Source of the DNA: a virus
IMG/VR virus record: IMGVR_UViG_3300020193_000953
Location: 1 to 28,983 of that record
Length of the DNA stretch: 28,983 nucleotides
Reading direction: 5' to 3' (one strand)
Both the position numbers and the translations under genes were made by a program. The notes below the pieces were generated by a model. It was not told where the DNA came from and did no database searches. It saw only the letters and a list, made by a program, of their open reading frames with translations. Shown here in pieces: positions 3,081 through 26,363 of the stretch (position 1 is its first letter; each line of letters starts with the position of its first letter).

Positions 3081-3624
3081 TGTTTGTAGTCGTTTTATTT
3101 ATCTTAACAATATTATCTGAAGCACTGTCTTTAGATATGCAACTAAACCCGTACGAGAATGGCTGTTTTTTGTCACCAATCCATAACGGGAAGTTATCAG
3201 AATCTTCACCTCTTTTTTTATTGAGATATTTTATAACATCATTCCTGTAATTATTTGCCTCAATCTTTACATTTTTTTCAAGAGCATTTAAACGAATATC
3301 TGATATAATACTTGAGTTTTCATCATTAAATTCACGCTCCCCGGTGGGTGTTGATTGAGATTGTGAAAAACGTAAATAGTTGTAGTACGTGAACCATGCA
3401 AGATAGTCTTTCAGGTAATCTTCATACAAAGTCTCATTCGCCGGTGTGAATGAGTCGCTCGTTGGATCATATTGTGTCTCAATTTCTGTATAGAATAATT
3501 CACCCAGCAAAGCTTTCATATCTCTTTGCGCAATCTTTAAAGACATCTTGAACTTATTATCGTCAATGTTTGTTGACACTGAACAAGCTTCATTTAGGTA
3601 CGATAATGGGATTAGATATTTCAT
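3073..3624 (-). CDS. Head-tail connector candidate
   Basis: 183 residues, mostly alpha-helical and charged, directly after the portal gene with an ATGA overlap (3621-3624). The N-terminal pattern (MKYLIPLSYLNEACSVSTNI, then a helix KIAQRDMKALLGELFYTEIE) and a central YEDYLKDYLAWFTYYNYLRF helix match proteins encoded just after the portal in Bacteroidota phages, which I associate with gp6-like connectors (possibly the DUF6712 group). Helical structure and position support a head-completion role joining portal and tail. I see no catalytic motif. The family name is from memory and unverified. Confidence 0.55.
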   Translation of the reverse strand: MKYLIPLSYLNEACSVSTNIDDNKFKMSLKIAQRDMKALLGELFYTEIETQYDPTSDSFTPANETLYEDYLKDYLAWFTYYNYLRFSQSQSTPTGEREFNDENSSIISDIRLNALEKNVKIEANNYRNDVIKYLNKKRGEDSDNFPLWIGDKKQPFSYGFSCISKDSASDNIVKINKTTTNNG

Positions 3625-5195
3625 TCTTCTTCAGCAGTTACTAGCCAGATACTAACATCATTATCCGAAAAATTAAACCCAGATTTCAAAAGTTGTGCGG
3701 CTTGTTCGTAAGTTATTTCGCCCTTGTTAAATTTTCTTACAATTCGCTGTATATTCTGCATCTGCATACCCTTTAAATTTTTTAGAGCATCATTTACCTG
3801 CACATCCTGCGTAGTGCCAGGTAAAGCAGTATTCACAGGCTCAATATACGTTATCTCTACACCCGGGACGTTTTTAGATACAAATTTCCTTTTTTCATCC
3901 GGACTCAACACTTCCCAAAACTTATCTTCGACGGTTACCGAGTTATTAACCGGATTAAACGGTTTTATTTTCACTTTTTGAAAAACAGGAACCGCAAGAT
4001 TTGGTAACAGGATGTTATTGTAAAATTGTTCAAGCTTTTTTCTTTGCTTTTCAGTACGGCTGTGCATTAGTTCAGTAGCCTTTTTAAAGCTCTCACCATC
4101 CGACCCCAAACTATTAGCCTGCTGCGGAAGGTTGGCAAGGATCGCAGGAACTTTCGTAGCAATCGTTATCCCACGGATTGTATCAAGTAATGTACCTGAT
4201 AATACGTCGTAATTGGTGTTTGTTGGGAAAGCCTGAAGCGTAGGTAACTGATCTTTACTAGCCCCCCATATTGTAAACACACTGCCAGCTTTCGAATGCC
4301 CTGAAAAATTAGTAGACATCCTATTATTAAAGTCCTCTCCTACGGTGGTTCCGTCGTGTTCACTTGATTCTATACCATCTATAATCGTTTTTCTAACGTA
4401 TTCTGGTGAATCACATGCTGCGTCTGGATCACCGATAAGAGACAAAAGAACGCTTTGAAAAAATCCGTTGTCAAGGTTTGAAGCGTGAAAACTTTGAATT
4501 TTACCATCCACGTAAATCCATTTTTTCCCAGTCCAATACTTTGGTACTGAGTAGAATTTATACGGGCTTCTCAGATAATTAAAATAGTATATCTGACCTA
4601 AGTAATCGTTGCCTTTTTCACTGTACTCATTAAGTACCTTTTTTTTATCAAACTCTGTATAATTTTTGCTGTCGGCTGGGTTAAATAACTCCGTGCCAAA
4701 ATAAGGGTTCACCTTAAAACTTGTAATCAAGCTAGACTTACGATTTGTATTTCTGCAAAACCGCGCCGTTTCAATCGGCACATTGAATGCAGATACAATA
4801 CCTGCACTATTGTTATACTTAAAATTTACCGCAAAACTTTCAAGCTTTGAAAGTGATTCTGAAAATGTGGTATGTAAATCAAAAAGGGTAGTACCCTCCG
4901 TATCAATAACTATACTTTCTAATGCAGGATCAGTAAATCCAGATCCGGTAATAAAGTCTGACACAACGTCCAAACAACTTGTAGTCGTCGGGCTTTCTTC
5001 AATCGCATTTAAAATGAGCAATGGCAAGTCGTCATTATCACCCCACTTTATCGTTTGTGTGTCGCTCCGTGTCTGCGTATCCTTCTGCGGACTTCTTACC
5101 AATGCCTCCGGATTACTGGTTATGCGATGGGCACTGAATCCAGTACTATTTCTAAACTTCTTATCTCTTGGATTGAATTTTTTTTCCACCGGCAT
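3621..5195 (-). CDS. Phage portal protein
   Basis: 524 residues, near the usual portal size. It has the expected features: a loose charged N-terminus, an early segment on choosing polypeptide sites (SCLDVVSDFITGSGF), a domain near 310-400 with ITIATKVPAILANLP and a long helix (SFKKATELMHSRTEKQRKKLEQFYNNILLPNL) typical of the portal stem and wing. The C-terminus holds a helical region (NLKGMQMQNIQRIVRKFNKGEITYEQA). The portal forms the dodecameric DNA gate at one capsid vertex. Unusually, it lies about 20 kb from the terminase genes, after the glycosylation cassette, and has its own promoter (5200-5245). The ATG at 5195 sits 4 bases after a TAAATTTG box, so the message may be nearly leaderless. 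Confidence 0.78.
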   Translation of the reverse strand: MPVEKKFNPRDKKFRNSTGFSAHRITSNPEALVRSPQKDTQTRSDTQTIKWGDNDDLPLLILNAIEESPTTTSCLDVVSDFITGSGFTDPALESIVIDTEGTTLFDLHTTFSESLSKLESFAVNFKYNNSAGIVSAFNVPIETARFCRNTNRKSSLITSFKVNPYFGTELFNPADSKNYTEFDKKKVLNEYSEKGNDYLGQIYYFNYLRSPYKFYSVPKYWTGKKWIYVDGKIQSFHASNLDNGFFQSVLLSLIGDPDAACDSPEYVRKTIIDGIESSEHDGTTVGEDFNNRMSTNFSGHSKAGSVFTIWGASKDQLPTLQAFPTNTNYDVLSGTLLDTIRGITIATKVPAILANLPQQANSLGSDGESFKKATELMHSRTEKQRKKLEQFYNNILLPNLAVPVFQKVKIKPFNPVNNSVTVEDKFWEVLSPDEKRKFVSKNVPGVEITYIEPVNTALPGTTQDVQVNDALKNLKGMQMQNIQRIVRKFNKGEITYEQAAQLLKSGFNFSDNDVSIWLVTAEEE

Positions 5196-5199
5196 GATA

Positions 5200-5245
5200 C
5201 AAATTTAATGGATATTCATTTTTAAGTAGTGACAACAGTTGTCAC
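5200..5245 (-). promoter_or_regulatory. Late promoter for portal block: palindrome plus -7 box
   Basis: The perfect palindrome GTGACAACAGTTGTCAC fills 5229-5245, with a single-base centre. On the minus strand, 21 bases downstream, is TAAATTTG (5207-5200), an exact match to the Bacteroidota -7 consensus TAnnTTTG. The portal ATG follows after 4 bases. There is no TTTG at the -33 position; the palindrome occupies that place. The same arrangement with the same spacing occurs before the protease-capsid gene. The stop codon of the Cys-rich gene (5242-5244) lies inside the palindrome. Confidence 0.65.
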
Positions 5246-5499
5246 CATAACCCCAGATCACATGACTCTTCTTTTATTCTCGGCTTTGTAGAAATCGGAC
5301 ACCCACATTCTACGCAAACCCCGTACTTATTCGAACCACACGGACGGCATATTTTACGACGCTCCTTTGCGTAGTCCGGATCAAATTGGACAGCTAACCA
5401 ATACCAAGCAGTGATAATGTTTTTGATTTTTTTAATCGATCGCTGAAATCGGCTCTTTTTCGATCCTCCGTGTGTAGGTAATGTTCCCCTAGGTTCCAT
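5242..5499 (-). CDS. Cys-rich small protein, probable zinc ribbon
   Basis: 85 residues. The C-terminal third carries six cysteines: C51-x2-C54, C62-x2-C65-x-C67 and C80, ending in DLGLW. Small proteins of this pattern (CxxC...CxxCGC...C..W, possibly the DUF6171 group) are frequent next to glycosyltransferases in phage genomes; zinc binding is likely but the role is unknown. The N-terminal 30 residues are strongly basic. The ATG at 5499 makes the gene overlap the end of the glycosyltransferase gene by 106 bases, which is long for this phage. Either the overlap is genuine or translation starts further in at a non-ATG codon. The stop lies within the portal promoter palindrome. Confidence 0.6.
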   Translation of the reverse strand: MEPRGTLPTHGGSKKSRFQRSIKKIKNIITAWYWLAVQFDPDYAKERRKICRPCGSNKYGVCVECGCPISTKPRIKEESCDLGLW

Positions 5500-6119
5500 C
5501 TTCTATTCAAATCTGATAATCTTTTAACATACTTTTCATGCCTGCGTAATAGACGATCTATACCACCAATGGCCCTATAATGTAGAAGAGCGTAGGTTTC
5601 TTCAGAAAATTGGATATTGCCTACCGGCCTGGCTTCATGGCATCCATAGATATAGGCAATCTCTTTTACCGCCTCTGGCTTGAAGCATACCAACTTAGAA
5701 TACGAATCATCTTTAAATCCGGTTACGATTTCAAGAAAGGAATCAACGGGCATATCATTAGAGTACATGTTGTATCCCTGAGTACGCAACATAGTCGCCC
5801 CTTTTAAAGCCTCCTGTTTAAATAGAAAAGATATGTCCTCATGGAACAGTATTTCATCACAATCACACACGATAACCCAATCCGCATCTGAATTTTTCCA
5901 ACAGTTATTTTTTACCTTAATGTACTCCCCATCACAAAGCATCCCTGGTATACCAAACTTTACAACCTCACACCCCATTGATTTGGCGATTAGGTCGCTT
6001 CCGTCATCGCTGTAATTGTCGTATATGACAATCCGATCACAAAATTTTTTATAATGTGAAACCGTTAGAGCGATAATATCCGCTTCATTCCAGTTGATAA
6101 TATGAGCTTCTATCTTCAT
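5394..6119 (-). CDS. Glycosyltransferase, GT2-like (GT-A fold)
   Basis: 241 residues. The N-terminus (IINWNEADIIALTVSHY, then VIYDNYSDDGS) is the nucleotide-sugar binding start of GT2-like enzymes that act on glycans. The metal-binding DxD is D86-C-D88 in WVIVCDCDE. The middle has YNMYSNDMP and a conserved HEARPVG that fits the acceptor side. No membrane segment, so the enzyme is cytoplasmic. It overlaps the methyltransferase upstream by 4 bases and ends over the Cys-rich gene. It would add a sugar to a glycan, protein or modified base; donor and acceptor cannot be told from the sequence. Confidence 0.75.
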   Translation of the reverse strand: MKIEAHIINWNEADIIALTVSHYKKFCDRIVIYDNYSDDGSDLIAKSMGCEVVKFGIPGMLCDGEYIKVKNNCWKNSDADWVIVCDCDEILFHEDISFLFKQEALKGATMLRTQGYNMYSNDMPVDSFLEIVTGFKDDSYSKLVCFKPEAVKEIAYIYGCHEARPVGNIQFSEETYALLHYRAIGGIDRLLRRHEKYVKRLSDLNRRWNLGEHYLHTEDRKRADFSDRLKKSKTLSLLGIG

Positions 6120-6646
6120 ACTTTTATAAAGTAAAACCCTGCATCGTCATTCTTATGCTCTGATATAACATTGATTGTATACTTGCCTTTGCAAAACTCT
6201 ATGACAGCCTGATTAACTCCGTACGCATTGTTTAAGAAGTCGTGCCCTGCCACAATACCGCCTTTTTTTACTTTAGGTGTCCACGCCTCCAGATCTTTCT
6301 TGACGCATTCGTAACTATGACAAGCATCTATATACACCATGTCTAAAGTACCGTCTGTAACTTCTTTTGCCATATCCCAGCTAATACCGCGAAGTACAAT
6401 AACGTTGTCTTTGTATTCCGAAACTCTGTGCATAGCTTCATCAAAATTCTTGTCGTGCCACGACTGATCAAAAGCTCCGTCGCCTCTTTGTGTAGGGATT
6501 GTTTCCCAATTATCAACCATATATAGAATACCCGATGGCCACCTCAATATGTCAAGGCTGAACAATCCCTCAGCACACCCAATTTCAGCAACGATAGGGT
6601 TTGCTGGCAATAGCTTGTATAATTGTGATCTGTATCTTATTTCCAT
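6116..6646 (-). CDS. Class I SAM-dependent methyltransferase
   Basis: From the ATG at 6646 the protein has 176 residues. A longer frame from 6730 would overlap the HNH gene by 62 bases with an unlikely N-terminal extension. Motif I is VAEIGCAEG (residues 19-27), followed by the acidic ribose-binding strand YMVDNWE. The TLDMVYIDACHSYECV segment and VKKGGIVAGHDF are typical of the Methyltransf_24 / sugar O-methyltransferase group. It is probably an O-methyltransferase acting on a glycan or small substrate. It overlaps the following glycosyltransferase by ATGA and comes 22 bases after the HNH gene. Confidence 0.75.
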   Translation of the reverse strand: MEIRYRSQLYKLLPANPIVAEIGCAEGLFSLDILRWPSGILYMVDNWETIPTQRGDGAFDQSWHDKNFDEAMHRVSEYKDNVIVLRGISWDMAKEVTDGTLDMVYIDACHSYECVKKDLEAWTPKVKKGGIVAGHDFLNNAYGVNQAVIEFCKGKYTINVISEHKNDDAGFYFIKV

Positions 6647-6668
6647 AATGAGAATAATCTTTTTTGTT

Positions 6669-7157
6669 TCATATATGTTTCCAGCTTTTTCTATTAAGGA
6701 TTGCAGAAATATTTGATTGAGTGACTCCATACATAGAAGCTATTTGACTCTCTGTTTTATCAGGAAACAACGCACGAATATTAATTACATCTGATTCCAC
6801 CAATTTTGAATGGATACATTTTGATCCAGAAACAGACCCTCCACGTGAACGCTTTTTATTATGCCTATCAGCAATATTATCCGCCTGAGTTCCTAAAAAT
6901 AAGTGATCAGGGTTAACGCATGCTGGATTATCACAGGTGTGTAATACTGAAAGTTCATCAATATTATAATGCTCTTTAAAAATCCAATAGGATACCCTAT
7001 GGGCTGTAACTACCTTATTACTTATTAATGACGCCTTCTGAATCCCATATCCATCAGCGTTAATAGATGCGCCCCAAATCCAACATCCGGTATTTGGTTC
7101 TGGATATGATTTTCTAATAATTTTTTCTTTTAAATCTTGCTCAGTTAGTTTTTTCAT
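6669..7157 (-). CDS. HNH endonuclease, free-standing homing type
   Basis: 162 residues. The N-terminal CWIWGASINADGYG and AHRVSYWIF segments lead to the HNH core: VLHTCDNPACVNPDHLFLG (H73, C75, C80, N82, H85), the HNH_3-type fold found in phage homing endonucleases. The C-terminus carries a helix-turn-helix (SQIASMYGVTQSNISAIL) that would read DNA sequence. It interrupts the glycosylation cassette between a GT25 and a methyltransferase gene, with only a 2-base gap to the upstream gene stop. That fits insertion of a selfish element. No intron or inteln boundary is seen, so it appears free-standing. It would nick or cut DNA at a specific site in related phages lacking it. Confidence 0.85.
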   Translation of the reverse strand: MKKLTEQDLKEKIIRKSYPEPNTGCWIWGASINADGYGIQKASLISNKVVTAHRVSYWIFKEHYNIDELSVLHTCDNPACVNPDHLFLGTQADNIADRHNKKRSRGGSVSGSKCIHSKLVESDVINIRALFPDKTESQIASMYGVTQSNISAILNRKSWKHI

Positions 7158-7159
7158 TT

Positions 7160-7951
7160 TTATCCTGCCCAGTTAAATGTTGACGGATTAAAGTCAGTCA
7201 TTAAATTTTGGTATACGTAGGCTGAATTTTCATGAGTTCCATTTAATTTTAAGAACCCAGACCAATAGGTAATACCATTACCAATATCCGAAATATTATC
7301 AATTTGACGAACACAACCAGGTACAAAAGAAAAACATTTTAGTTGTGGCTGCAACTTAATAAACAAAAAATCTATACCTATCGACTCATGTATATGCTGG
7401 TCAAACATATTCAGTATCTTCTGAATAGAATTAACATTCACGATATAGGCGAAAGTAGCAAATGCACCGAATGTTCTTATCATCCTTGGATCATCGGTTG
7501 TCTCACAATCGCGTCCTAACTCTGCACTGCAATTATTACGCATGTCTTTTGAACCACCTATACAATGCCAGTACGGAGGTATATGGAATGAAGCCCCTAG
7601 CCATATAACATCCCACTCGTGAGTATCAGACCATTTTGATATGTAGTCCATTCGCTCGTTAAAGTCTTCGCAGAAAACTAAATCATCCTCCATGACAAAA
7701 GCATGCTTGCCAACATTAAGTGCGTCCTTCATCACTTGAACCTGCGAAAAGTGGCAACCTATTGCGCCCTGCGTACGCCTAAACATAGTACCAACCTGCT
7801 TAGGTGTTGCGATCTTTCTTTCGATTACGTCTTCAGGACGAAGGCCACGAGTTCTAACGGCATTTAATCCTATTCTATTTAACTGCTCGGTCATGTGCGA
7901 AAGCCTATCCACGCGATGATCCATGTTTACAAATGATGCGTAGTATTCCAT
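7160..7951 (-). CDS. Glycosyltransferase family 25
   Basis: 263 residues. The start YASFVNMDHRVDRLSHM matches the family 25 opening. The GAIGCHFSQVQVM segment (62-74) is the family's signature for acceptor-side positioning, and FVMEDDLVF contains the metal-binding acidic cluster E88-D89-D90. GT25 enzymes act in LPS outer-core synthesis and in hydroxylysine galactosylation. Cytoplasmic, no membrane span. It shares its first base with the stop of the FkbM methyltransferase upstream (TAATG), so the two are translationally coupled. Substrate unknown. Confidence 0.85.
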   Translation of the reverse strand: MEYYASFVNMDHRVDRLSHMTEQLNRIGLNAVRTRGLRPEDVIERKIATPKQVGTMFRRTQGAIGCHFSQVQVMKDALNVGKHAFVMEDDLVFCEDFNERMDYISKWSDTHEWDVIWLGASFHIPPYWHCIGGSKDMRNNCSAELGRDCETTDDPRMIRTFGAFATFAYIVNVNSIQKILNMFDQHIHESIGIDFLFIKLQPQLKCFSFVPGCVRQIDNISDIGNGITYWSGFLKLNGTHENSAYVYQNLMTDFNPSTFNWAG

Positions 7952-8583
7952 TATGCGTATTTAAATGACCCATTGATATATAGTGCATCCCCCCAGCCAG
8001 TATTTCCGCACCAGAAAGTTTCTACACGTCGGAAATTAAAACCGATCATGTATAAATCGATGTCATCTACAAGCGCGCAACCTTCATATAATCGTTCCTT
8101 ATTAACCTCCAGATACGCAGCTTTAAATCCTTTGAGCAAATCACCCATTCCACGCATGGCCATAAGTTCAGCCCCTTGCAAATCAATGTTAAGAAAATCA
8201 ACACCCGATAAATCAAGGCCCAGCGAATCAATACGGTGCATCCTTAGAGACTTGTCTTCAACATAATGTACTTCAGGGTGTACGACTGCATGTGTCCCTA
8301 AATCTAATACTGAACTAGATTGGCTTCCGTTGTTGGATATGTGGAATATTGCATCCTTGTTTTCGTCGCCAATAAGGTAATTCAACGCAATTGCATCCGG
8401 ATTATTGCTTACATTATTTTTAAGCTTAACAAAAATATCTGGATTACCCTCAATCCAAATTTGTTTTTTAATACCAAGCTCATTATAAACGGGAGCCTCT
8501 TCACCAACGTTTGCCCCAATGTGTAGGACACCATTAAATTTCAGGTTATACTTTGGGAATAAATTTCTAAAGTCTATCAGCAT
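7951..8583 (-). CDS. FkbM-family methyltransferase
   Basis: About 210 residues from the ATG at 8583, one base after the upstream stop; an in-frame ATG at 8604 would overlap the previous gene by 20 bases. Motif I is VLHIGANVGEE and the ribose-binding strand is IWIEGNPDIF. The characteristic FkbM segment DFLNIDLQGAELMAMRGM follows, then a strand AYLEVNKERLYEG. FkbM enzymes O-methylate sugars and polyketides, and are frequent in capsule and LPS clusters, where a terminal methyl group can stop chain growth or hide an epitope. It lies between another methyltransferase and the GT25. Confidence 0.85.
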   Translation of the reverse strand: MLIDFRNLFPKYNLKFNGVLHIGANVGEEAPVYNELGIKKQIWIEGNPDIFVKLKNNVSNNPDAIALNYLIGDENKDAIFHISNNGSQSSSVLDLGTHAVVHPEVHYVEDKSLRMHRIDSLGLDLSGVDFLNIDLQGAELMAMRGMGDLLKGFKAAYLEVNKERLYEGCALVDDIDLYMIGFNFRRVETFWCGNTGWGDALYINGSFKYA

Positions 8584-8584
8584 A

Positions 8585-9160
8585 TTATCGTGGTTTAAAT
8601 CCATTACTCATTTCAACTTCCCAAACTCCATATCCTAACGCTGTAGGATAAATTTGCATGAATCCAGGTTCAATAAGCTCATTCAATGCCTGCCGTACTT
8701 CCGGGTTTTCACCGTCATTTGTTGCGTCATGGCCTGCCAAAATTCTATTAGGCAACACTTTCCGATACCACAATCTGACCTCCGCTTTAGTCTGTTCGTA
8801 CTTATGCGATGAATCAAGAAAAACAAAGTCAAAGTATTCATCTGGGAATTTACAAGAGGCATCAAGGCTACTAACACCTAAGCCCCTCGTATCAATAAAA
8901 TTAGATAGCCCACTTGCGTACACGTGATTTAAAATAGTTTTCAATTGATCCTCACGGCCATAGTCTAAGTTATCTACCAGGCAAAGCTTAAAGCTCTTCC
9001 CCATGTTTGCCATCGCTTCAGCAAGATATATCGCGCTCTTTCCGTCTGCTACTCCAACTTCGCAAAGATTTGCACCGCTAGGCATTATTTCAGCAATTCG
9101 ATTATAGTACGCGGAGAAATCAAACATTTCTCCAGGTATTGTTTCCCAATATTTTCTCAT
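8585..9160 (-). CDS. Class I SAM methyltransferase (Methyltransf_24 type)
   Basis: 191 residues. Motif I LCEVGVADGKSA (32-43), acidic strand CLVDNLDYG, and the YFDFVFLDSSHKYEQTKAEV segment with RILAGHDATND are typical of the sugar/macrolide O-methyltransferase-like group. The His-Asp pair in AGHD may hold a divalent metal. It overlaps the epimerase upstream (ATGA) and is followed immediately by the FkbM gene, so three cassette genes form one translational unit. Likely a second glycan O-methyltransferase; the target is not known. Confidence 0.78.
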   Translation of the reverse strand: MRKYWETIPGEMFDFSAYYNRIAEIMPSGANLCEVGVADGKSAIYLAEAMANMGKSFKLCLVDNLDYGREDQLKTILNHVYASGLSNFIDTRGLGVSSLDASCKFPDEYFDFVFLDSSHKYEQTKAEVRLWYRKVLPNRILAGHDATNDGENPEVRQALNELIEPGFMQIYPTALGYGVWEVEMSNGFKPR

Positions 9161-10191
9161 TCGTATTGTGATTTAATCCAGTTATAAGTTTTTTCAAGAC
9201 CTTCACGAAGTGTATGCTTTGGCTTCCAATTAAGAACCTGCTCAATCAATGTGTTATCAGAATTTCTACCCATTACACCCATAGGCCCGGTAATGTTTTT
9301 AATCGTAACCTCTTTACCAGAAAATTCAATGGCCATCTTAGCAAGCTGGTTGATAGTTACTACCTCTTCACTTCCGATATTAATAGGCTCTTTAAATTCT
9401 GATTCCATAAGTAATCGAACTGCGTCTATGCAATCGTCTATGTACAGGAATGACCGTGTTTGATGTCCAGTGCCCCAAACCTCCAATTGATTGTGATCTT
9501 TGCTTGTCGTTGCGTGTAGCAATTCTACAACCTTGCGACACATCGCGGCAGGTGCTTTTTCTCGACCTCCCTTATACGTTCCTTCTGGCCCAAATATATT
9601 ATGGAATCTAGCTATCCGAACATCTATTCCTTTATTACGAGCAAAGGCAAGGTATAGCCTTTCGCTAAACAACTTTTCCCATCCGTATTCTGAATCAGGG
9701 TTGCCGGGGTATGCGTCGCTTTCCTTTAGTGCTGATACGTTGTATTCATTCTGCAATTCCTGCGGATACATACACGCAGATGAAGAATAGAATATTTTTC
9801 CTTTGAACTTTTGCGCCGCTAAACTATCAAGAATATTCAAGTTAATTAATGCCGAATCGTGCATTATATCACTGTCATTTTCACCGGTAAAAACATATCC
9901 AGCACCACCCATTTGACAAGCAAAAGAATATACTTCATCAAATTGAATACTATTTTCAAACGGTAAAGGATGATATGTATATTTTTTTAAATCATTAAGT
10001 CTTAAGGTTGCATCTACTCTTGATTTATCACGTAAATCCTCAATGATAAATTCATCACAAAATTCTAAAGGATTACCATAATCATATTCTTTAATGTCAA
10101 CAACACGTACCCAGTACCCAAGTTGTTTTAATCTTCTCGCCATGTGGTGACCAATAAATCCTGATCCACCTAAAACTAAAGCTGTCTTCAT
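9157..10191 (-). CDS. NAD-dependent epimerase, GDP-mannose 3,5-epimerase-like
   Basis: 344 residues, extended SDR family. It has the NAD motif GGSGFIG (8-14), the catalytic Tyr-Lys pair Y169-x3-K173 (SEYGWEKLF), and SSSACMYPQ with Cys140, the position of the acid/base cysteine in GDP-mannose 3,5-epimerase. The segment IFGPEGTYKGGREKAPAAMCRK (199-220) closely follows the plant GME signature. ACQMGGAGYV at 91-100 also fits. Plant GME turns GDP-D-mannose into GDP-L-galactose. That product could feed the neighbouring GT11-type transferase. The gene ends in an ATGA overlap with the next methyltransferase, and its start is 1 base after the GT11 stop. Confidence 0.83.
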   Translation of the reverse strand: MKTALVLGGSGFIGHHMARRLKQLGYWVRVVDIKEYDYGNPLEFCDEFIIEDLRDKSRVDATLRLNDLKKYTYHPLPFENSIQFDEVYSFACQMGGAGYVFTGENDSDIMHDSALINLNILDSLAAQKFKGKIFYSSSACMYPQELQNEYNVSALKESDAYPGNPDSEYGWEKLFSERLYLAFARNKGIDVRIARFHNIFGPEGTYKGGREKAPAAMCRKVVELLHATTSKDHNQLEVWGTGHQTRSFLYIDDCIDAVRLLMESEFKEPINIGSEEVVTINQLAKMAIEFSGKEVTIKNITGPMGVMGRNSDNTLIEQVLNWKPKHTLREGLEKTYNWIKSQYE

Positions 10192-10192
10192 A

Positions 10193-10987
10193 TTATCTAA
10201 ATTTTATTTGTATCCACTCATTAGGTATTAAATCAACGCAATCCTGCTTTACTCCGCTTTCTAAGCCGAACCAATTACCACGTGTATGGGAAGGGCTTAT
10301 AACTATCTTATCCGGATTATGACCAAGATATGCACCCCACCAGCTAAAGGTACTATTAGCTATAATATGATGCCCACATGATGCCATTAGTTCAAGGTCT
10401 TGCAGTTCTGTTCGGCTTTCTGAATATCCCCGTATTCCATCAATGCAATGAAAATTATCCTTACACCATTTTATATCATCGGAAAATACAATGAAATTAT
10501 TAAATCCAATATTAGAAAAATGTTCCGTTGCAATCTTTAGGTAGTTAAGATCAATAGGAGGGAAACTGCCTGAATGCTGAACATAATCACCACGGCGTAC
10601 ATGAATACTTACATAGTCTTCGTACCCTGGAATATGTTTTAATTTGAATACGTCTTTTACTTCATCCTTGCAGTGTTCAAAGTATTTCCACGACTGAAAG
10701 AACCCAAACAACATAACATTATCACCTATGTTTGGTATATCATGGAAATCAAAATGGCATAAGTCTTTGTGTCTATTGTGGATATGACAATGTTCATTTA
10801 GATGCTCTTCGTAGCGCTGGTAACGATTATTACACCTTGGCAGGTTAGGGTATACACGATGTATGGATGATTCTCTTGCATCATCTGGTACACCCCATTC
10901 ATAACCGTACTTTCGAGCGTACCCAATTGCCGCAGCAATTTGAAACATACTATTACCTAATCGACCGATAAATTTTGTTGTTACCAT
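10193..10987 (-). CDS. Glycosyltransferase family 11 (alpha-1,2-fucosyltransferase-like)
   Basis: 264 residues. The N-terminus KFIGRLGNSMFQIAAAIGYA is the GT11 opening. The donor-binding motif HVRRGDYV is at 129-136, and the C-terminal ANSTFSWWGAYLG (210-222) matches the conserved SNSTFSWW block. Family members move L-fucose from GDP-fucose to the 2-OH of galactose. Here the next gene is a GDP-mannose 3,5-epimerase-like enzyme that would give GDP-L-galactose, a fucose analogue with a 6-OH, so L-galactose may be the sugar moved. The gene overlaps the GT2 upstream (TAATG). Cytoplasmic. Confidence 0.87.
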   Translation of the reverse strand: MVTTKFIGRLGNSMFQIAAAIGYARKYGYEWGVPDDARESSIHRVYPNLPRCNNRYQRYEEHLNEHCHIHNRHKDLCHFDFHDIPNIGDNVMLFGFFQSWKYFEHCKDEVKDVFKLKHIPGYEDYVSIHVRRGDYVQHSGSFPPIDLNYLKIATEHFSNIGFNNFIVFSDDIKWCKDNFHCIDGIRGYSESRTELQDLELMASCGHHIIANSTFSWWGAYLGHNPDKIVISPSHTRGNWFGLESGVKQDCVDLIPNEWIQIKFR

Positions 10988-11685
10988 TAACGCATCTGTT
11001 TTAATTTCTCAATAATTGAATCATGAAACCCCTGTGGCGTTCTCCGAACATTATTACGGTAGTGGCTACCATCGTGAACACGGTGTTCGTATTCAAGAGA
11101 AGGCTCAACGTATATTGAATGGCCAGCCTCCAGCCATCGGTAATTTTGGTATAGCGAATCGCTTGTTACAGGGTCTATAGTACCATCCCAAACACGCAAA
11201 TATTCATCACGATTCACAAAATAGTTCATCGCGTTAAGCATCGTTTGGAAAGTTGGATCTGATATGTATTCAGCAACATTATGTTTTGAAATTATAAAAC
11301 CAGCATACTTTGTAAAATTAAAATGAGGTTTAGCAAAAGCCGGATGAATAATAATGCCTTTACTAAGTCTAAATGGCGTACATAGTAAAACCAATATATA
11401 CATTTTAGTTATTATATTATCGCTATCTAAAATAATCACCCATTCATTTGTTGCAAGCTCTACAGCGCGTTTCTTGTTCCGGTAACAGTCAAGATTACTT
11501 TTGTTACGGTATAGCTTTACTTTGGGTATGTCTTTCACATGCTCTTGTATTTCTTCAAATACTTCCATGCTTGAACAGTCGTCAACAATAACTATCTCAG
11601 AGATTATATTGTCGTCTACAACTTGTGCGAACGATTCGAACAACATGCCGGTACGCTCGTATGTTGGTATGCAAAGTGAAATCAT
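10987..11685 (-). CDS. Glycosyltransferase family 2
   Basis: 232 residues. It opens with ISLCIPTYERTGMLFE, continues to IVIVDDCSS (31-39), and carries the metal-binding D87-S-D89 in WVIILDSDN: all standard GT2 marks (GT-A fold). The C-terminal DPVTSDSLYQNYRWLEAG segment resembles the acceptor side of family members. No membrane segment. It starts directly after a 35-residue membrane peptide gene and couples to the GT11 gene. It likely adds one sugar of the glycan built by this cassette. Confidence 0.85.
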   Translation of the reverse strand: MISLCIPTYERTGMLFESFAQVVDDNIISEIVIVDDCSSMEVFEEIQEHVKDIPKVKLYRNKSNLDCYRNKKRAVELATNEWVIILDSDNIITKMYILVLLCTPFRLSKGIIIHPAFAKPHFNFTKYAGFIISKHNVAEYISDPTFQTMLNAMNYFVNRDEYLRVWDGTIDPVTSDSLYQNYRWLEAGHSIYVEPSLEYEHRVHDGSHYRNNVRRTPQGFHDSIIEKLKQMR

Positions 11686-13978: not shown

Positions 13979-16222
13979 TTAGTAAGAAATAGCTGTCAAA
14001 TCACAGTGGATACTAGGCAAGAAGCCCATAGTCATATTAGACCGGTAGTATCTCTTGTTGTCTTTTTTCTCAAACCATGAATCAATTTTTTCCATGTCTG
14101 CAGTATCCTCAACACCCAACACGTGGTTTTCCTTGATCGTGAAAGCAATCAAGTGCTTAGTAGTAGCCGCCAACGGGTTGGTTGAATCAGAAAGATGATC
14201 GTCCCAGATACTAATAGGTTTCACTGGGATACCTAAGTATGTAAGGTTGCTGATACCCTGGATTGCGTTTGTGAATTGCTGTTCAGTAACCGCACCAGTT
14301 CCAATCAAACTATTGTAGTAGTTTTCCCACACTGATCTTGTTACCAAAAATTGACCCTTACCACCGTCGATTGCTTGTTGTTTCAAAAGTAGTGGGCTGT
14401 TATTAACTATGTTCTGGAAGTAGCTCAACGCTGTTCCTGCCGATAATGTACCTGTACCAAGTGACGAACCTATGCGGTTAACGCAATAGTTTGAAGCTCC
14501 TGAAGAGTCAATTAATGCTTGCCAGAATCCGTCAAACTGATTCCAGTCTGCGCTGGAGCTTGAAAGATCAGCGAATGATACACGTCTCCAAATGTCACGA
14601 CGCAAAGCATCTTTTAACAGGTCAACGATCATCGTGTCGATTGGCGTCCCTGCTGGGTCAAAGGATTCATTACCGGATTTCAAATACTGCTCTGCCAGAA
14701 CATTGTACTTACCTTGCAATTGTTCGGTGAAGTCATCCTTGCACCATCCCTCATACATTTGAAAAGGTTTCAATTGAATACCCTTCGATGTAAGGTTAAA
14801 AGATGAATTTGTGATAGCCTGATCGCATCCGGTGTAAGGCTTCAGGATCTTGTTCATTACAGGTGCGATGTGGTACTTCTTGCTATTCTTAGCCCCCAGG
14901 TCAAGATTGAATACATCCGCAAGTGCAGGAGATCCAATTGTAGGCTTAAAGAAAAGATCTGTACTCAGCAGTCCATCATAGGTGTAGTTGAACTCCACCT
15001 CTAAAATAGAAGCTGCATTGGGGCCACCTTCGCGGTAGGACGAAAAGCTTGTGCCATCGGCAAAGCACCCATTCTTATACCGCTTTTCAAGCCACGGCAT
15101 ATTCTCGGCCAGGAACGTACGAGATGCACGTATCGCCATCTCTTTATTAGTACTCTTATTCATAATGCTTACAGGTTTTCTTACGGCCTCTGCGCCGGAA
15201 TCTGGTTTTGAATTGTCACCTATTACTTTTTTACTTTCTGCTTCAAGATCTTTTTTGATAGCCTGCATCGCTGCGGCTGCGTCACTTAGCTTTGTTTCAA
15301 GCTCTACTTTCTGTGCGTCTGCATTGGCTGTCGCAGCCTTAGCCGCATCAAGCTGAGCATTTAAAGCGGCTATCTGTTGCTCTAATTTAGCCTGCTCCGT
15401 CATTGGTGGAGTCACTGAAGTGATAACACCACCAGCAACCACAACGACGCTACCGTCTGCCATCTGGTGTTCACCATCCGGCGCAGGCTGTCCGTTGACC
15501 GTTACAGTCTTACCCACAAGTTGTCCGTCCTCCGATTGAACAACCAAAACAGTACCATCGGCTTTGGATAGATCCAGTGCCTTTGGCCCTTTAACGAACT
15601 GTGAAAGTTCATTGAGCTTTGCATCAATCGCGTTCAATGCTTTAGAAAAAATGTTGTCTTTGTTGTCTTCCATTTCCTTACTGCCGAATGCAACGGCTTT
15701 TAATTTTTTGTATTGATCGTCCTCAAGAATACGCCCACCTATTTCATCTGCAAATCCAAAATCAACCGCTTCTTTTGCGGTCATCCTTGTTTCTGCTTTC
15801 ATCATCTGCTTAATAACATCAACAGTCTTACCCGATCGTTGTGCGTAGGCTTCTGCCATTGCATTTTCAATCGACAGTAATTCGTCTGCTCCGCTTCTAA
15901 GCATGTCCGCGTCACCTCTCAACCCTTGTGATGGGTTATGTATCATCCAGATTGAGGGGTCAAGTATCACTATCTTTTTTCCAGCCAAAGCAATGAATGT
16001 CGCCATAGATTGAGCTTCGCCTTCTATCCGGCTCTCAATTTCTACGCCCAATGACTTCAGCAAGTGATACCCCTTATATCCGCCGTATACACTACCGCCT
16101 GGGGATTGAATATGATGTATGATTTTTTTTGTGTTGGCAGGCATACCGCCTAACTGCTGCTTTAACACCAGGTGATAATCTTCTCCTATAATGTCATCAG
16201 TGAATATGTGATAATCTGCCAC
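13979..16222 (-). CDS. ClpP-type prohead protease / linker / major capsid protein fusion
   Basis: 747 residues, GTG start at 16222. Residues 1-170 are a ClpP/S14-type protease: SPGGSVYGG (40-48), nucleophile Ser72 in EAQSMA, His95 in WMIHNPS; Glu143 lies at the position of the family's Asp. Residues about 210-272 form a small beta-rich segment (GQPAPDGEHQMADGS...GGVITS). Residues 274-335 are a charged coiled coil, the scaffold-like delta region. From about 345 on, the HK97-type major capsid domain begins (MAIRASRTFLAENMPWLEKRY) and runs to the end. One chain thus holds protease, scaffold and capsid, which must be cut during head maturation. Own late promoter (16240-16285). Confidence 0.85.
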   Translation of the reverse strand: MADYHIFTDDIIGEDYHLVLKQQLGGMPANTKKIIHHIQSPGGSVYGGYKGYHLLKSLGVEIESRIEGEAQSMATFIALAGKKIVILDPSIWMIHNPSQGLRGDADMLRSGADELLSIENAMAEAYAQRSGKTVDVIKQMMKAETRMTAKEAVDFGFADEIGGRILEDDQYKKLKAVAFGSKEMEDNKDNIFSKALNAIDAKLNELSQFVKGPKALDLSKADGTVLVVQSEDGQLVGKTVTVNGQPAPDGEHQMADGSVVVVAGGVITSVTPPMTEQAKLEQQIAALNAQLDAAKAATANADAQKVELETKLSDAAAAMQAIKKDLEAESKKVIGDNSKPDSGAEAVRKPVSIMNKSTNKEMAIRASRTFLAENMPWLEKRYKNGCFADGTSFSSYREGGPNAASILEVEFNYTYDGLLSTDLFFKPTIGSPALADVFNLDLGAKNSKKYHIAPVMNKILKPYTGCDQAITNSSFNLTSKGIQLKPFQMYEGWCKDDFTEQLQGKYNVLAEQYLKSGNESFDPAGTPIDTMIVDLLKDALRRDIWRRVSFADLSSSSADWNQFDGFWQALIDSSGASNYCVNRIGSSLGTGTLSAGTALSYFQNIVNNSPLLLKQQAIDGGKGQFLVTRSVWENYYNSLIGTGAVTEQQFTNAIQGISNLTYLGIPVKPISIWDDHLSDSTNPLAATTKHLIAFTIKENHVLGVEDTADMEKIDSWFEKKDNKRYYRSNMTMGFLPSIHCDLTAISY

Positions 16223-16288: not shown

Positions 16289-16480
16289 TTACGAGTGCTT
16301 CTTAACGCATCTTATCACTGTACGCATCGACACATTATTGTCACACGATATATCAATCACGCGTAGACCTTCGCGCTTACCCTGCATGATACGCCACTTG
16401 GTAAGCATATCCGGACGCGCAAGGCCGCTTGCGATGTGTTCAATAACCTCCTGCTCTGTATAGTCAGCTAAATTTCTCAT
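16289..16480 (-). CDS. Small HTH-like protein upstream of the capsid gene
   Basis: 63 residues, basic. The C-terminal half ([30 protein letters not shown]) reads as a helix-turn-helix of the Trp-repressor/sigma-region-4 type: helix, turn around NNVS, recognition helix RTVIRCVKK. The N-terminus is helical ([21 protein letters not shown]). It overlaps the tape measure stop by ATGA. The late palindrome (16269-16285) lies 3 bases past its stop. A DNA-binding protein encoded right at this position is a natural candidate to bind it, which is inference only. Confidence 0.62.
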
Positions 16481-18570
16481 AACGACGTTATATCCTCTTT
16501 ATATGCAACTTTATTACTTTCCCTGTAAAATTCCCGAATGTCTAAAACTGGAGCCGGCATACTTTGTAGTGCACTCAATAACGCTACATTGCTATCTATT
16601 GAACTTGTTTGTGCCTGCGTTACTATTCCACCGTCTGCATACTGCGCTGTCGGTCTAAGGGCATTGGCTACCTGTGGGCCACCCACGGCGCTAACGTCGG
16701 CCTGTGACCATACCACCTCACCCTTGTGAACTATACCTGCAGGTTCGTACTTACCACCATCACCGGTATATCCACCATCTGCGAATAGTGTTCTCAACAA
16801 ATTACGGCCCCGTCTTAATTGAGCCTGTATCCCAAGATCCTGGAACGTAAGTTTACGATCCTCTCCCAGCAAAAACGTTTTGGTATTAAATCTCTGCTCA
16901 CCAACTGGCACAGCCTTACCATTTTGGATTGTGAACTGCTGGCCACCGGCGCCCGTGTACGTGGTTGTGCTTATTGAATTTGAAGAAGAAGCTCCTAGTA
17001 TACTCTCTGCCTGTTTAATGTTCGCCGATATTTGCAGGATACCAGCCGCAAATTGAGCCGCACCAGCAAGCCCACCTGTAGGGCCGTTAGCAGGGTTTTG
17101 TTGAGACGCTTTAACCAGTGAAGATATAGCCAGTGCCGTATCAATACCTATCTGTACAAGGGCCGACGCCTTATTGTCTTTTCTTACCGTATCAGCAAGC
17201 CTTGCCCCTTGTGTTGCGAAGTTCGCGTAGATGTTGAATGTTTTCTCTTTATATAACTGTATTGCCTCCTCCGTTTTAATTGCGTCTTCTGCATCGCGTC
17301 TTCTGAATACTTTTTGATCTGCAAGGTACTTTTCGTTAAACGCTTTATTGGCGTCAAGCAACTCATTGTTAAACTCTCTTACATCCGTTATCCTCTTGAT
17401 ATAAGAGTCTCTTTCCGCCTTTTCCCTTGCCTTAATAAATGATTGTTCAACGTCGTCTTTCAAGCGCACTTGCTTGATATACTCCTTAATCATTTTTTCA
17501 TCCGCCTCTTTTTGTTTTCTGGCTGCTTCTAATTGCTTTTGTTTTTCATCTGTGTATTCTTTTTCAAGTGCCAGAATACCGTTCAACGCTTCCGTACGCT
17601 TTCCTTGGCTGTCCTCTTCGATGTCTGATATTTCAAACTGGACAAGCTTTATTTCCTTTTGCAAATCCAGATTATTCTTATCGAGTGCTAGCAATACCTG
17701 TAATTGGGCAAGCTTCTTTTCCTGCGCTTCAACTAATGCTTTTTCCCGATTATTTATAAACACGGACACCGTTTCAGCGGCCTGCATACGTTCTTCATCA
17801 CTCTTATTCTGATCGTCACGGATACGGCGTTGCACTTCAGCCAGATCTAGCTGTACCTTGGCAAACCGCTTGGATTCAAGTTCGGCAAGTTCTAACTCAC
17901 GAAGTGTATTCTTTGCCGTAGCCGCGACTAGACCGTCCACGGCAGCACTTATACCAAAGACAGATGTATTAAATTCAAAAGCTAACCTACTCAATAATCC
18001 CCCCCCTTTGCCATCAGCACCTAATAGGTCAGCCAATGAATTACTGACTGTTGTTATCGACGTACTGAGCTGTGTTTGCGCGCTGGCCAAATCCCTGGCC
18101 CCCGCTGCTGAAGAAACATATAGTGACGATAAGGCAGTGACAGCCCCAGCCGCAGCCGTAGCCGGCGTAAGGAATGATGTGATTGTAGATGTTAGATCTG
18201 ACATTGATTGACCACCAAACTTCACATTCTCAGAAAATGAAGTCAAAAATCCGTTCTGACTTTTAATTGATTCTGCAAGCTTATTATTCGAATCAATAAG
18301 CTTATCCATACCGGTCTTCGTGCCGGTCACCTCCTTAGTCAAATCAGTATAGGCACGCTGGCTTTTCCTTAGTATCTGTTCAAGTCGTACAGTATCAGAC
18401 GCGTATTCATCTATGGTTATATCACCATCTTTTAAAGCCTTATTAAGTGTCTTTTGCTCTTCTTTAGTAGATATTATAGATTTCTTGTACTTTTCAAGTT
18501 GCGCTATTGCGTCCTCTTGCTCTACCTCAAACTTTAATATCTCCGTCCGCTTATTAGATTCGGTTGCCAT
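16477..18570 (-). CDS. Tail tape measure protein
   Basis: 697 residues. Long charged coiled coils fill about 10-110 and 215-430; a hydrophobic Ala/Ser-rich stretch near 130-160 ([18 protein letters not shown]) and another near 470-520 could enter the host membrane during DNA delivery. The C-terminus has [25 protein letters not shown], a signature of tape measure proteins in many phages. At roughly 0.15 nm per residue it would set a tail of about 100 nm. It starts with a TAATG overlap to the tail protein upstream and is coupled by ATGA to the HTH-like protein downstream. Confidence 0.85.
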
Positions 18571-24246: not shown

Positions 24247-25001
24247 TTATTTCAACTCTGAATACTTCTTTTGGACATTCTGTTCATGTGCAAGGTACAA
24301 CATTTCGTACTTAATTTCATCGACCGACCACCTTATAAGCTCGTGCCTGCGATACGGTGTCGAACGTTCCAGATGGTGGATCGTATAAAACCAGCCGAAC
24401 GTATCAACCAAAGCCTTATAGCCAGCTTCAATCTGTTTGTCCGAGAACCCCCCTTGATTAGGTAATTGTGCAGCGTGGGCATTTTCAATTCGAGTAAGGT
24501 CATCAAGATAAAATTTCCGACGGCCATGACCTCCGAGCATGGCGCGTGAAGAAACTGTTTTGCAAATTCATCTTTCTGATCATTGTCGGTATCAAGATAG
24601 TCCGGCATGGCATAGATGGCCACAATATCAATGTACTTCATAAGGTTATCCCTCTGCGAATCATTATCATTCATGGTCTTCGCGATCGTCATTAGGTCGC
24701 CATACTTACCCCACGGTTGGCCGTTGAGGGACTTTGGGACCTTATACCCCAGGATTGTTTCTGGTAGTTTTGGATTCATTTGAGTGTCGATGAAATCCAG
24801 CGCTCTGATAAAAGCGGGCAGATTTTCAACCTGTACTCTGGATACCGTGTCTTTGTCAAGCCCTAGAATTATGGCGGCTATTGAACTCTGGGACATGTCA
24901 GAGGTTACGATGTCCACATATTGCCCAAAGCTCACATCGTCCCAGGATGTTGGGATATGCTTGTCGATTGTGACCCCGTTTAGCGTTGCTTTTACTTTCA
25001 T
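24247..25001 (-). CDS. Tail assembly chaperone-like, -1 frameshift product
   Basis: The zero-frame ORF runs 25001-24333 (222 residues). At 24453-24448 is GGGGGG, read in frame as AAG GGG GGT. A -1 shift there joins residues 1-185 to the second frame (FSDKQIEAGYKALVDTFGWFYTIHHL...) down to the stop at 24247, a 251-residue product. The zero-frame tail after the shift is Arg/Trp-rich and unnatural, while the second frame is protein-like and helical. Such gpG/gpGT-like pairs are known for tail assembly chaperones in siphoviruses. N-terminus MKVKATLNGVTIDKHIPTSWDDVSF is typical of Bacteroidota phage proteins. Position differs from the usual spot next to the tape measure. A sequencing error is possible. 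Confidence 0.6.
24448..24453 (-). promoter_or_regulatory. Slippery site for -1 frameshifting (GGGGGG)
   Basis: Minus-strand run AAGGGGGGTTC: zero frame reads AAG GGG GGT TCT, and -1 frame continues GGG TTC TCG. The slip lets tRNA-Gly re-pair perfectly. Downstream structure was not computed. Confidence 0.55.
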
Positions 25002-25004
25002 AGT

Positions 25005-26363
25005 TCAATTAAAATTAGTGTGTACTCGTTTCATTTTAGGTCTGTACTCAAACCAAGCTCTCATGATGTATGTGTCCATGTCATCGGGGCTATAACCTAT
25101 TGCGGCTTTCACATCGTCTTTCGGAGTTAACCCGCGTTTCTGGTCGCTATCCATTGATTTCTGTTTGAGTTGTTCAAGCTGTTCGATAACCCGTTGTGCC
25201 ATGTTATCATCCGCTTTTTCATAGATTTGGCGTGAATTTATTATCTCCGCGAGCTTAAATCCGCACTGACTTTTTAAAATGTCGAAATTCTCTGGCGCCC
25301 GCTGCCCATTGGACATGAATGTTAATGATGGTAAGGGCTTGGCATTGGCTACAAAACCTATGCAATGGAGCAGGTCTACTACCCCTCCACCTACTCCTGA
25401 TTCATCCACTATTACGTTAGACATGGGGATCGCATACTTGCTTGCCAATTGACGTATCGCGTCTGCGGATTCATTGATCTTGGACTTTTCGATGACTTTA
25501 ACGTAAAGGACACGCCATCCGGACCATACACGAATGGTCGTGGTATCCTTTCCAAGACGTGCTATATCGGCTGTTATGTACTTCGTTCCATGTGGAACAT
25601 GCTCGTTGGTGAAGATGTCGCAAATAGCTTGGTAGTCGCATAGTGTTGCAGGGTCGTCATCGTATTCCCAATTGCCTCTTAATAGTCGCTCTTTCTCGTT
25701 GGCTGATAATACGGTGTTTAGGTGTTCAATGTATCCGGTGGCTATCTTCTTATTGTCGGTGGGTAGAGCTTGGATGAAAGCCTTATATGATTCTAGCTTA
25801 CCTTGTTTGTGTTTAAGATAGTAGTCTTTGTATAGGTAATTTTTAGAAGGGTTACACGTCTGCAGTAGTTTGGCCTTCAGATTGTACTGATCATTATTCC
25901 ATCGTCCGATGGATGCTGCCAGGTTATTCTTAGCTTCTAGTTCAAAGTCCCCGGCTTCTTCGATCCATCCGCGCGTCATCTGCATAGATCCGAATCGGGC
26001 GTATGTTGGGTCCGAGGGTAGGAACTTTGCGTCGAGTAGGAAAACCTTAGACCCATTATAGAGATTAAACATATTGTCCTGTCCGTTGAATCGGTACATA
26101 CTCATGTCCACGCCCCAATGTTGAATAACTTCGTAGATACTTGGTATTGTGTACTTCCGTAAGTCGTTGAGCTTCTTTCGAGCGATAAAGTAGTGGGTGT
26201 TAGGGTATATGAATGCGTCCCCGAATATAAGAGAGCAACCGGTATATGACTTAGCAGAGCCTTTGGATCCTCCGTATACGATGTCTGTTGTCGTGTTGTC
26301 AATCCAATGTTTGGCGCAAAGTTTCTGTTTTTCATTCCCGTGCGTATCAAAGGTTAGCTTCAC
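25005..26363 (-). CDS. terL: Terminase large subunit
   Basis: 452 residues, GTG start. Walker A is GGSKGSAKS (31-39). The Walker-B-like acidic pair is in WIEEAG (133-138). The C-terminal RNase-H-like nuclease has ITADIARLGKD (Asp266, Asp273), then VIVDESGVGGG (Asp320), the usual metal ligands. A last DD pair precedes DTYIMRAWFEY at the end. The enzyme translocates DNA into the prohead and cuts the concatemer. It comes 46 bases after the small subunit and 3 bases before the chaperone-like gene. Confidence 0.95.
   Translation of the reverse strand: MKLTFDTHGNEKQKLCAKHWIDNTTTDIVYGGSKGSAKSYTGCSLIFGDAFIYPNTHYFIARKKLNDLRKYTIPSIYEVIQHWGVDMSMYRFNGQDNMFNLYNGSKVFLLDAKFLPSDPTYARFGSMQMTRGWIEEAGDFELEAKNNLAASIGRWNNDQYNLKAKLLQTCNPSKNYLYKDYYLKHKQGKLESYKAFIQALPTDNKKIATGYIEHLNTVLSANEKERLLRGNWEYDDDPATLCDYQAICDIFTNEHVPHGTKYITADIARLGKDTTTIRVWSGWRVLYVKVIEKSKINESADAIRQLASKYAIPMSNVIVDESGVGGGVVDLLHCIGFVANAKPLPSLTFMSNGQRAPENFDILKSQCGFKLAEIINSRQIYEKADDNMAQRVIEQLEQLKQKSMDSDQKRGLTPKDDVKAAIGYSPDDMDTYIMRAWFEYRPKMKRVHTNFN

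Follow-up and report, generated by a model that had tools for sequence, protein, structure and literature searches.

Sequence comparison points to programmed −1 frameshifting with two alternative C-termini in a terminase-adjacent phage gene

Main

Phages lambda and HK97 produce gpG/gpGT and gp13/gp14, respectively, from one gene of the tail block, in which a −1 frameshift yields a second, longer product that shares its N-terminal part with the first; in lambda, ribosomes shift close to the 3′ end of g (PMC5009743). The signals of E. coli dnaX and of the IS911 type combine an X_XXY_YYZ heptamer with a stimulatory GGAG or GGAGG a short distance upstream (PMC4066793). In Bacteroidia, ribosomes largely ignore Shine–Dalgarno (SD) sequences at initiation (PMC9976891), yet prfB keeps an SD-like +1 site (PMC8710568, PMC9976891, PMC12421855).

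Here we analyse a gene, referred to as gene X, in a virus contig of 28,983 nucleotides (IMG/VR record IMGVR_UViG_3300020193_000953; this whole stretch is called the window). Judging from its relatives and its start-codon context, the window probably belongs to a tailed phage of Bacteroidota. An earlier note, made from the letters of the window, had described a 222-residue open reading frame (ORF) with an overlapping −1 frame, a 251-residue product that a −1 shift would generate and a position beside the terminase gene. Both frames are present on the minus strand, the size of the fused product was confirmed, and the gene for the terminase large subunit (TerL) lies directly upstream (Table 1). 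Sequence searches of Pfam, NCBIfam, PHROG and PDB with the gene X family returned no match, and in the part of the literature covered we found no paper describing it.

Table 1. Features of gene X and its surroundings, in window coordinates
Feature	Position	Strand	Details and evidence
Terminase large subunit, immediately upstream of gene X	25005..26363	−	phrog_2, E 1.1e-22
Zero-frame product	24333..25001	−	222 residues: N part 1–164 plus 58-residue zero-frame end; homologues at HMM level, 26 non-duplicate loci
Shared N part, codons 1–164, common to both products	24510..25001	−	Conserved in a single frame as far as the slip codon, in all homologues
SD-like GGAGG, 13 nt 5′ of heptamer, proposed stimulator	24530..24534	−	Clade A conservation
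Slippery heptamer A_AAT_TTT, P-site AAT, A-site TTT	24510..24516	−	AAATTTT or T_TTT_TTT at the same column in most relatives
C-terminal domain in the −1 frame, 87 residues past the slip, plus stop	24247..24516	−	C-domain HMM in −1 frame of all relatives
Dual-coded overlap: basic zero-frame end (58 codons, then stop) over −1 C domain	24333..24509	−	Open length, similarity, model
AAG GGG GGT, site proposed in the earlier note	24447..24455	−	Incidental; not conserved
Tape measure protein, downstream in the block of gene X	16477..18570	−	phrog_1506 tail length tape measure, E 1.1e-15

The change of frame is shared by relatives

Direct searches of viral contigs and the phage collection with the fused protein gave no matches; relatives were reached through neighbours of TerL, whose loci contained gene X. 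In these loci tblastn put the C part in the −1 frame relative to the N part. Profiles built from them led to 26 non-duplicate loci with both parts, the window counted, of which five came from an alignment scan and two (L023 and L025) are near-identical. Profile comparison placed the beginning of the C part at the end of the N part, always in the −1 frame, in 26/26 loci. The same arrangement was found in two held-out loci, L103 and L106, that had been used in building nothing, and, again after TerL, in the isolated Flavobacteriaceae phages P12024S and P12024L, which were found because the predicted structure of the P12024S protein I6R9M9 matched the window model. A genome contig scan yielded a single match, a spurious membrane-protein gene with neither an N nor a C domain, which was rejected. 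In P12024S and P12024L the gene is annotated as two separate hypothetical proteins, gp38 and gp39 (L100 3136–3830), despite the slippery site.

The earlier note had proposed aligning homologues across the join and held that a single continuous frame in them would point to a sequencing error in its G run. That alignment now comprises about 30 loci, including the two isolate genomes, that share the −1 shift. Homopolymer runs are prone to indel errors and the window is a virus contig without reads, but the recurrence of the −1 arrangement in about 30 loci, two complete isolate genomes among them, at one column away from the G run, excludes sequencing error as the cause of the shift and leaves next to no chance that an error of sequencing or assembly, or a recent disabling indel, lies behind it.

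Single-frame relatives are limited to distant, differently built proteins (BS-TP3 gp55, L017, L072, L073, L075 and L077–L079), in which the C domain occupies one shorter ORF near the same place, and the argument for an error therefore does not apply. They show the C domain to be a genuine protein domain, with the frameshift belonging to the other branch. The phrog_28240 profile matched these single-frame relatives and gave no match to the window or to the frameshifted relatives scanned. Among viral structure models, uncharacterised phage proteins of 220–244 residues match both parts of gene X and are possibly single-frame fusions. Two further observations concern the single-frame branch. In L079 (5077–6059), A_AAA_AAA stands near the 3′ end and the −1 frame runs on without a stop for 150 codons, reaching into the next ORF, possibly a different frameshift; and L084 9299–9835, which is BS-TP3 gp55, is named a TrkA-N domain protein, an annotation problem.

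From the conserved arrangement we strongly infer that programmed −1 ribosomal frameshifting gives gene X two alternative C-termini.

A_AAT_TTT as the likely slip site, and an upstream GGAGG

At the frame change the window reads GTC GGA AAT TTT ATC. Its AAATTTT heptamer recurs in L002, L006, L051, L087, L090, L091 and L106, and most other relatives have T_TTT_TTT at the same alignment column. An in-frame slippery heptamer stands at the frame-change column in 24/26 loci, and also in L103, L106 and P12024S/L. The full heptamer is absent from L003 (G_AGT_TTT) and L092 (A_AGT_TTT), which keep U_UUU, a tetramer prone to shifting in E. coli (PMC4066793). Elsewhere in these loci, in-frame X_XXY_YYZ heptamers account for 0.6% of codons; because the heptamer was allowed to lie up to 4 codons from the HMM boundary, the fair background is about 5%, not 0.6%. 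In L103 a −1 stop (TAG) immediately precedes TTTTTTT, which pins the slip position.

The earlier note had put the slip at AAG GGG GGT. That sequence is present and the direction of the shift was right; the position was not, as the slip site shared with relatives lies 63 nt further upstream. G_GGG_GGT fits X_XXY_YYZ and falls within the overlap, but conservation already changes frame at AAT TTT, 63 nt before the G-run heptamer (24453), and the −1 frame is conserved from there on. The G6 run is present in the window only, being absent from 8/8 clade-A relatives aligned, and in E. coli slippage on GGN codons is poor, below that on UUN or AAN (PMC4066793). Slippage on the G run thus stands a very slim chance of being correct. 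With the switch at AAT TTT, residues 165–183 of the frameshift product would be YLDDLTRIENAHAAQLPNQ, not the zero-frame ILMTLLELKMPTLHNYLIK.

Clade A consists of the window, L002, L003, L006, L051, L087, L090, L091 and L092, with the held-out L106 as a tenth member. GGAGG occurs exactly 13 nt before the heptamer in all nine (9/9), and in 10/10 with L106. It spans differing residues (S, P, V, T, M or Q before E-V), and its joint probability in the nine, from the codon usage of each locus, is about 1e-7.9, a figure that assumes an independence the loci have only in part; codon usage cannot account for the motif. Synonymous sites at codons −8 to 0 are conserved at 0.71, compared with 0.34 expected. 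L094 and L103 carry GGAGG 16 nt before TTTTTTT, and most T7-clade members have neither an SD-like element nor downstream structure. The earlier note had also suggested folding the RNA downstream of its proposed site; this gave no structure signal, and no stable or covarying downstream fold was found.

The spacing of GGAGG is within or near the range of the stimulatory SD elements listed in PMC4066793. Its probable action is to stimulate the slip by pairing, during elongation, with the tail of the ribosome's 16S rRNA. The SD-blind initiation of Bacteroidia counts against this role. SD motifs are rare at gene starts in the window and its relatives, with GGAGG or AGGAG at 0/26 window ORFs.

Two other routes to the fused protein were weighed against ribosomal slippage. 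A fused message could arise by transcriptional slippage on a T run, and many relatives do have T7 to T9 at the site; in clade A, however, the window included, AAATTTT offers four T only, its phasing is fixed to A_AAT_TTT and a GGAGG stimulator of the ribosomal type accompanies it, which makes this route highly unlikely. Alternatively, gene X could be two overlapping genes, as annotated in P12024S/L, with the C domain translated separately through coupling or an internal start. Four loci have a possible start codon for this, among them the window, with a −1-frame ATG ten codons before the slip. In the other 22/26, however, the stretch from the last −1 stop to the slip contains no ATG, GTG or TTG, and across the family the conserved C frame starts at the slip codon and the slippery heptamer is conserved. 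We consider two separate genes very unlikely and retain ribosomal frameshifting at A_AAT_TTT.

Evidence for selection on the zero-frame end

The zero-frame end had been called Arg/Trp-rich and unnatural. Instead, it is conserved, dual-coded and modelled as a confident helix. Beyond the slip, 55 codons of the zero frame are free of stops on average, compared with 14.6 for 811 control stretches taken from other genes, and this open length far exceeds that in synonymous resampling of the −1 frame; over about 57 codons, openness and conservation go further than the −1 frame requires. The excess of zero-frame similarity in clade A reached z 13.3 for nine sequences, and 8.4, 5.3 and 4.6 as close relatives were removed. 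Relatedness inflates such z values, an effect addressed by this thinning and by controls on the N part, whose alternative frames gave z 1.9–2.6 for the nine sequences and never more than 1.1 once these were thinned; beyond the zero-frame stop, z for the C part was 0.6–2.9. Zero-frame similarity was also found in the held-out L106 (p 0.001). In the T7 clades the zero frame is open and similarity is weak or absent, and a net charge of the zero-frame end above expectation was seen in clade A only. Selection on this end is clear only in clade A, as judged from sequence.

Synonymous conservation follows the same boundaries: it is at background in the N part (0.31 versus 0.29), raised in the overlap (0.47 versus 0.31) and at background again after the zero-frame stop (0.31 versus 0.30). 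AlphaFold modelled the 222-residue product with a mean pLDDT of 89 and a helix at residues 187–214 near 90, from an alignment that contained homologous zero-frame ends; the C domain alone gave a helical model with a pLDDT of 82.

The additional synonymous conservation of the overlap might reflect an RNA signal rather than zero-frame coding, and its peaks at codons +1 to +9 and +25 to +39 could be RNA elements. However, stable or covarying structure was not found, and an RNA signal cannot account for the avoidance of zero-frame stops in both clades or for the confident helix, so we regard this explanation as improbable. Zero-frame coding remains the better account, and the comparisons argue strongly that both ends are under selection.

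A tail-block gene with a possible chaperone role

The gene order in clade A is TerL, gene X, p146, p164, p710, p719, tape measure and protease/capsid. The window's tail block contains no frameshift candidate of this kind other than gene X, and a search for a tail-tube gene near it identified none. When the model of the zero-frame product was compared with the PDB, the HK97 tail chaperone gp13 (2ob9) came first of 635 chains aligned, with Z 3.7, a level at which chance matches are common; the match covers 74 residues of the N part with an rmsd of 4.4 and proves nothing alone. The C domain model had no PDB match with Z of 2 or more.

Several other features of the window were seen along the way. 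A 747-residue ORF (13979–16222, minus strand) begins with a head maturation protease of the Clp type and continues, in one frame, into a long C part that probably is capsid protein. The portal gene (3621–5195) is far from terminase, and glycosyltransferase, methyltransferase and sugar epimerase-like ORFs lie between structural genes (5242–11685, minus strand). Near the end of the glycosyltransferase ORF (5394–6119) there is an A_AAA_AAA (5427–5433, minus strand); the −1 frame stays open there over 63 codons and enters a DUF6171-like ORF (5242–5499) that has its own ATG, and this may be a plain overlap.

On a rival reading of its function, gene X encodes a structural or packaging accessory protein that is frameshifted but has no relation to tail chaperones. 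Gene X adjoins terminase, has no sequence link to known chaperones, and its single-frame distant relatives occupy the same place. Against this stand its being the sole such frameshift candidate in a tail block that runs into the tape measure gene, and the first, if weak, rank of the HK97 chaperone. We consider an accessory protein unlikely, though deserving of some weight.

Of the earlier description of gene X, the programmed −1 frameshift is strongly supported, and a chaperone role is our best guess from the tail block, the shared N part and the weak 2ob9 rank. By analogy, gene X fairly likely encodes a tail-assembly chaperone pair that works like lambda G/GT. We have not filed it as a member of the lambda G/GT family because its place differs and a secure fold or sequence link is lacking.

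Discussion

In the mechanism that we propose, ribosomes arriving at GGA AAT TTT ATC would either read on, giving the 222-residue product with its basic, helical 58-residue end, or move one base back on A_AAT_TTT, giving the 251-residue product with an 87-residue helical C domain. Pairing of GGAGG, 13 nt upstream, with the 16S rRNA tail during elongation would promote the slip. As the overlap encodes both ends, the phage would keep two proteins with a shared N part. If these act as gpG and gpGT do, the shared N part may bind the tape measure protein and the frameshifted domain may recruit tail-tube subunits.

Gene X adds an unannotated family of frameshifted phage genes, one that gave no match in our Pfam, PHROG or NCBIfam searches, and it does so in phages of a phylum in which initiation takes little account of SD sequences. 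Its fixed internal GGAGG before the slip offers a simple system in which to ask whether the occluded 16S tail acts in elongation. More speculatively, and to our minds with little likelihood, GGAGG could tie frameshifting to a free 16S tail in elongating Bacteroidota ribosomes, the ratio of products could respond to ribosomes without bS21 or with phage bS21, and the dual-coded ends could make both products essential. In its long overlap, dual-coded and with both readings apparently selected, gene X is unlike lambda, and such an overlap would mean that both alternative C-termini are needed.

The likenesses to described systems are partial. The single-frame proteins of phrog_28240 (Bacteroides phage BS-TP3 gp55 and relatives) resemble gene X in their place after terminase and, at HMM level, in the C domain, but have one continuous frame, a shorter N part and no frameshift. 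Bacteroidia prfB is alike in keeping an internal SD-like sequence where initiation ignores SD (PMC8710568), but its shift is +1 rather than −1, its spacing is different and it is a cellular gene. With dnaX and IS911-type signals, gene X shares the X_XXY_YYZ heptamer and the upstream element; by contrast, we found no downstream stem-loop, and the phages concerned rarely use SD at gene starts. The lambda and HK97 chaperone genes are alike in being one gene of the tail block with a −1 frameshift, a shared N part and a longer second product. Gene X differs from them in sequence, with no similarity found, and from lambda in its place, which is next to terminase and some 6 kb ahead of the tape measure gene rather than directly upstream of it and after a tail-tube gene; whereas the lambda shift comes near the 3′ end of g, the zero-frame product of gene X continues past its slip site with a conserved end of 57–68 residues laid over the −1 domain.
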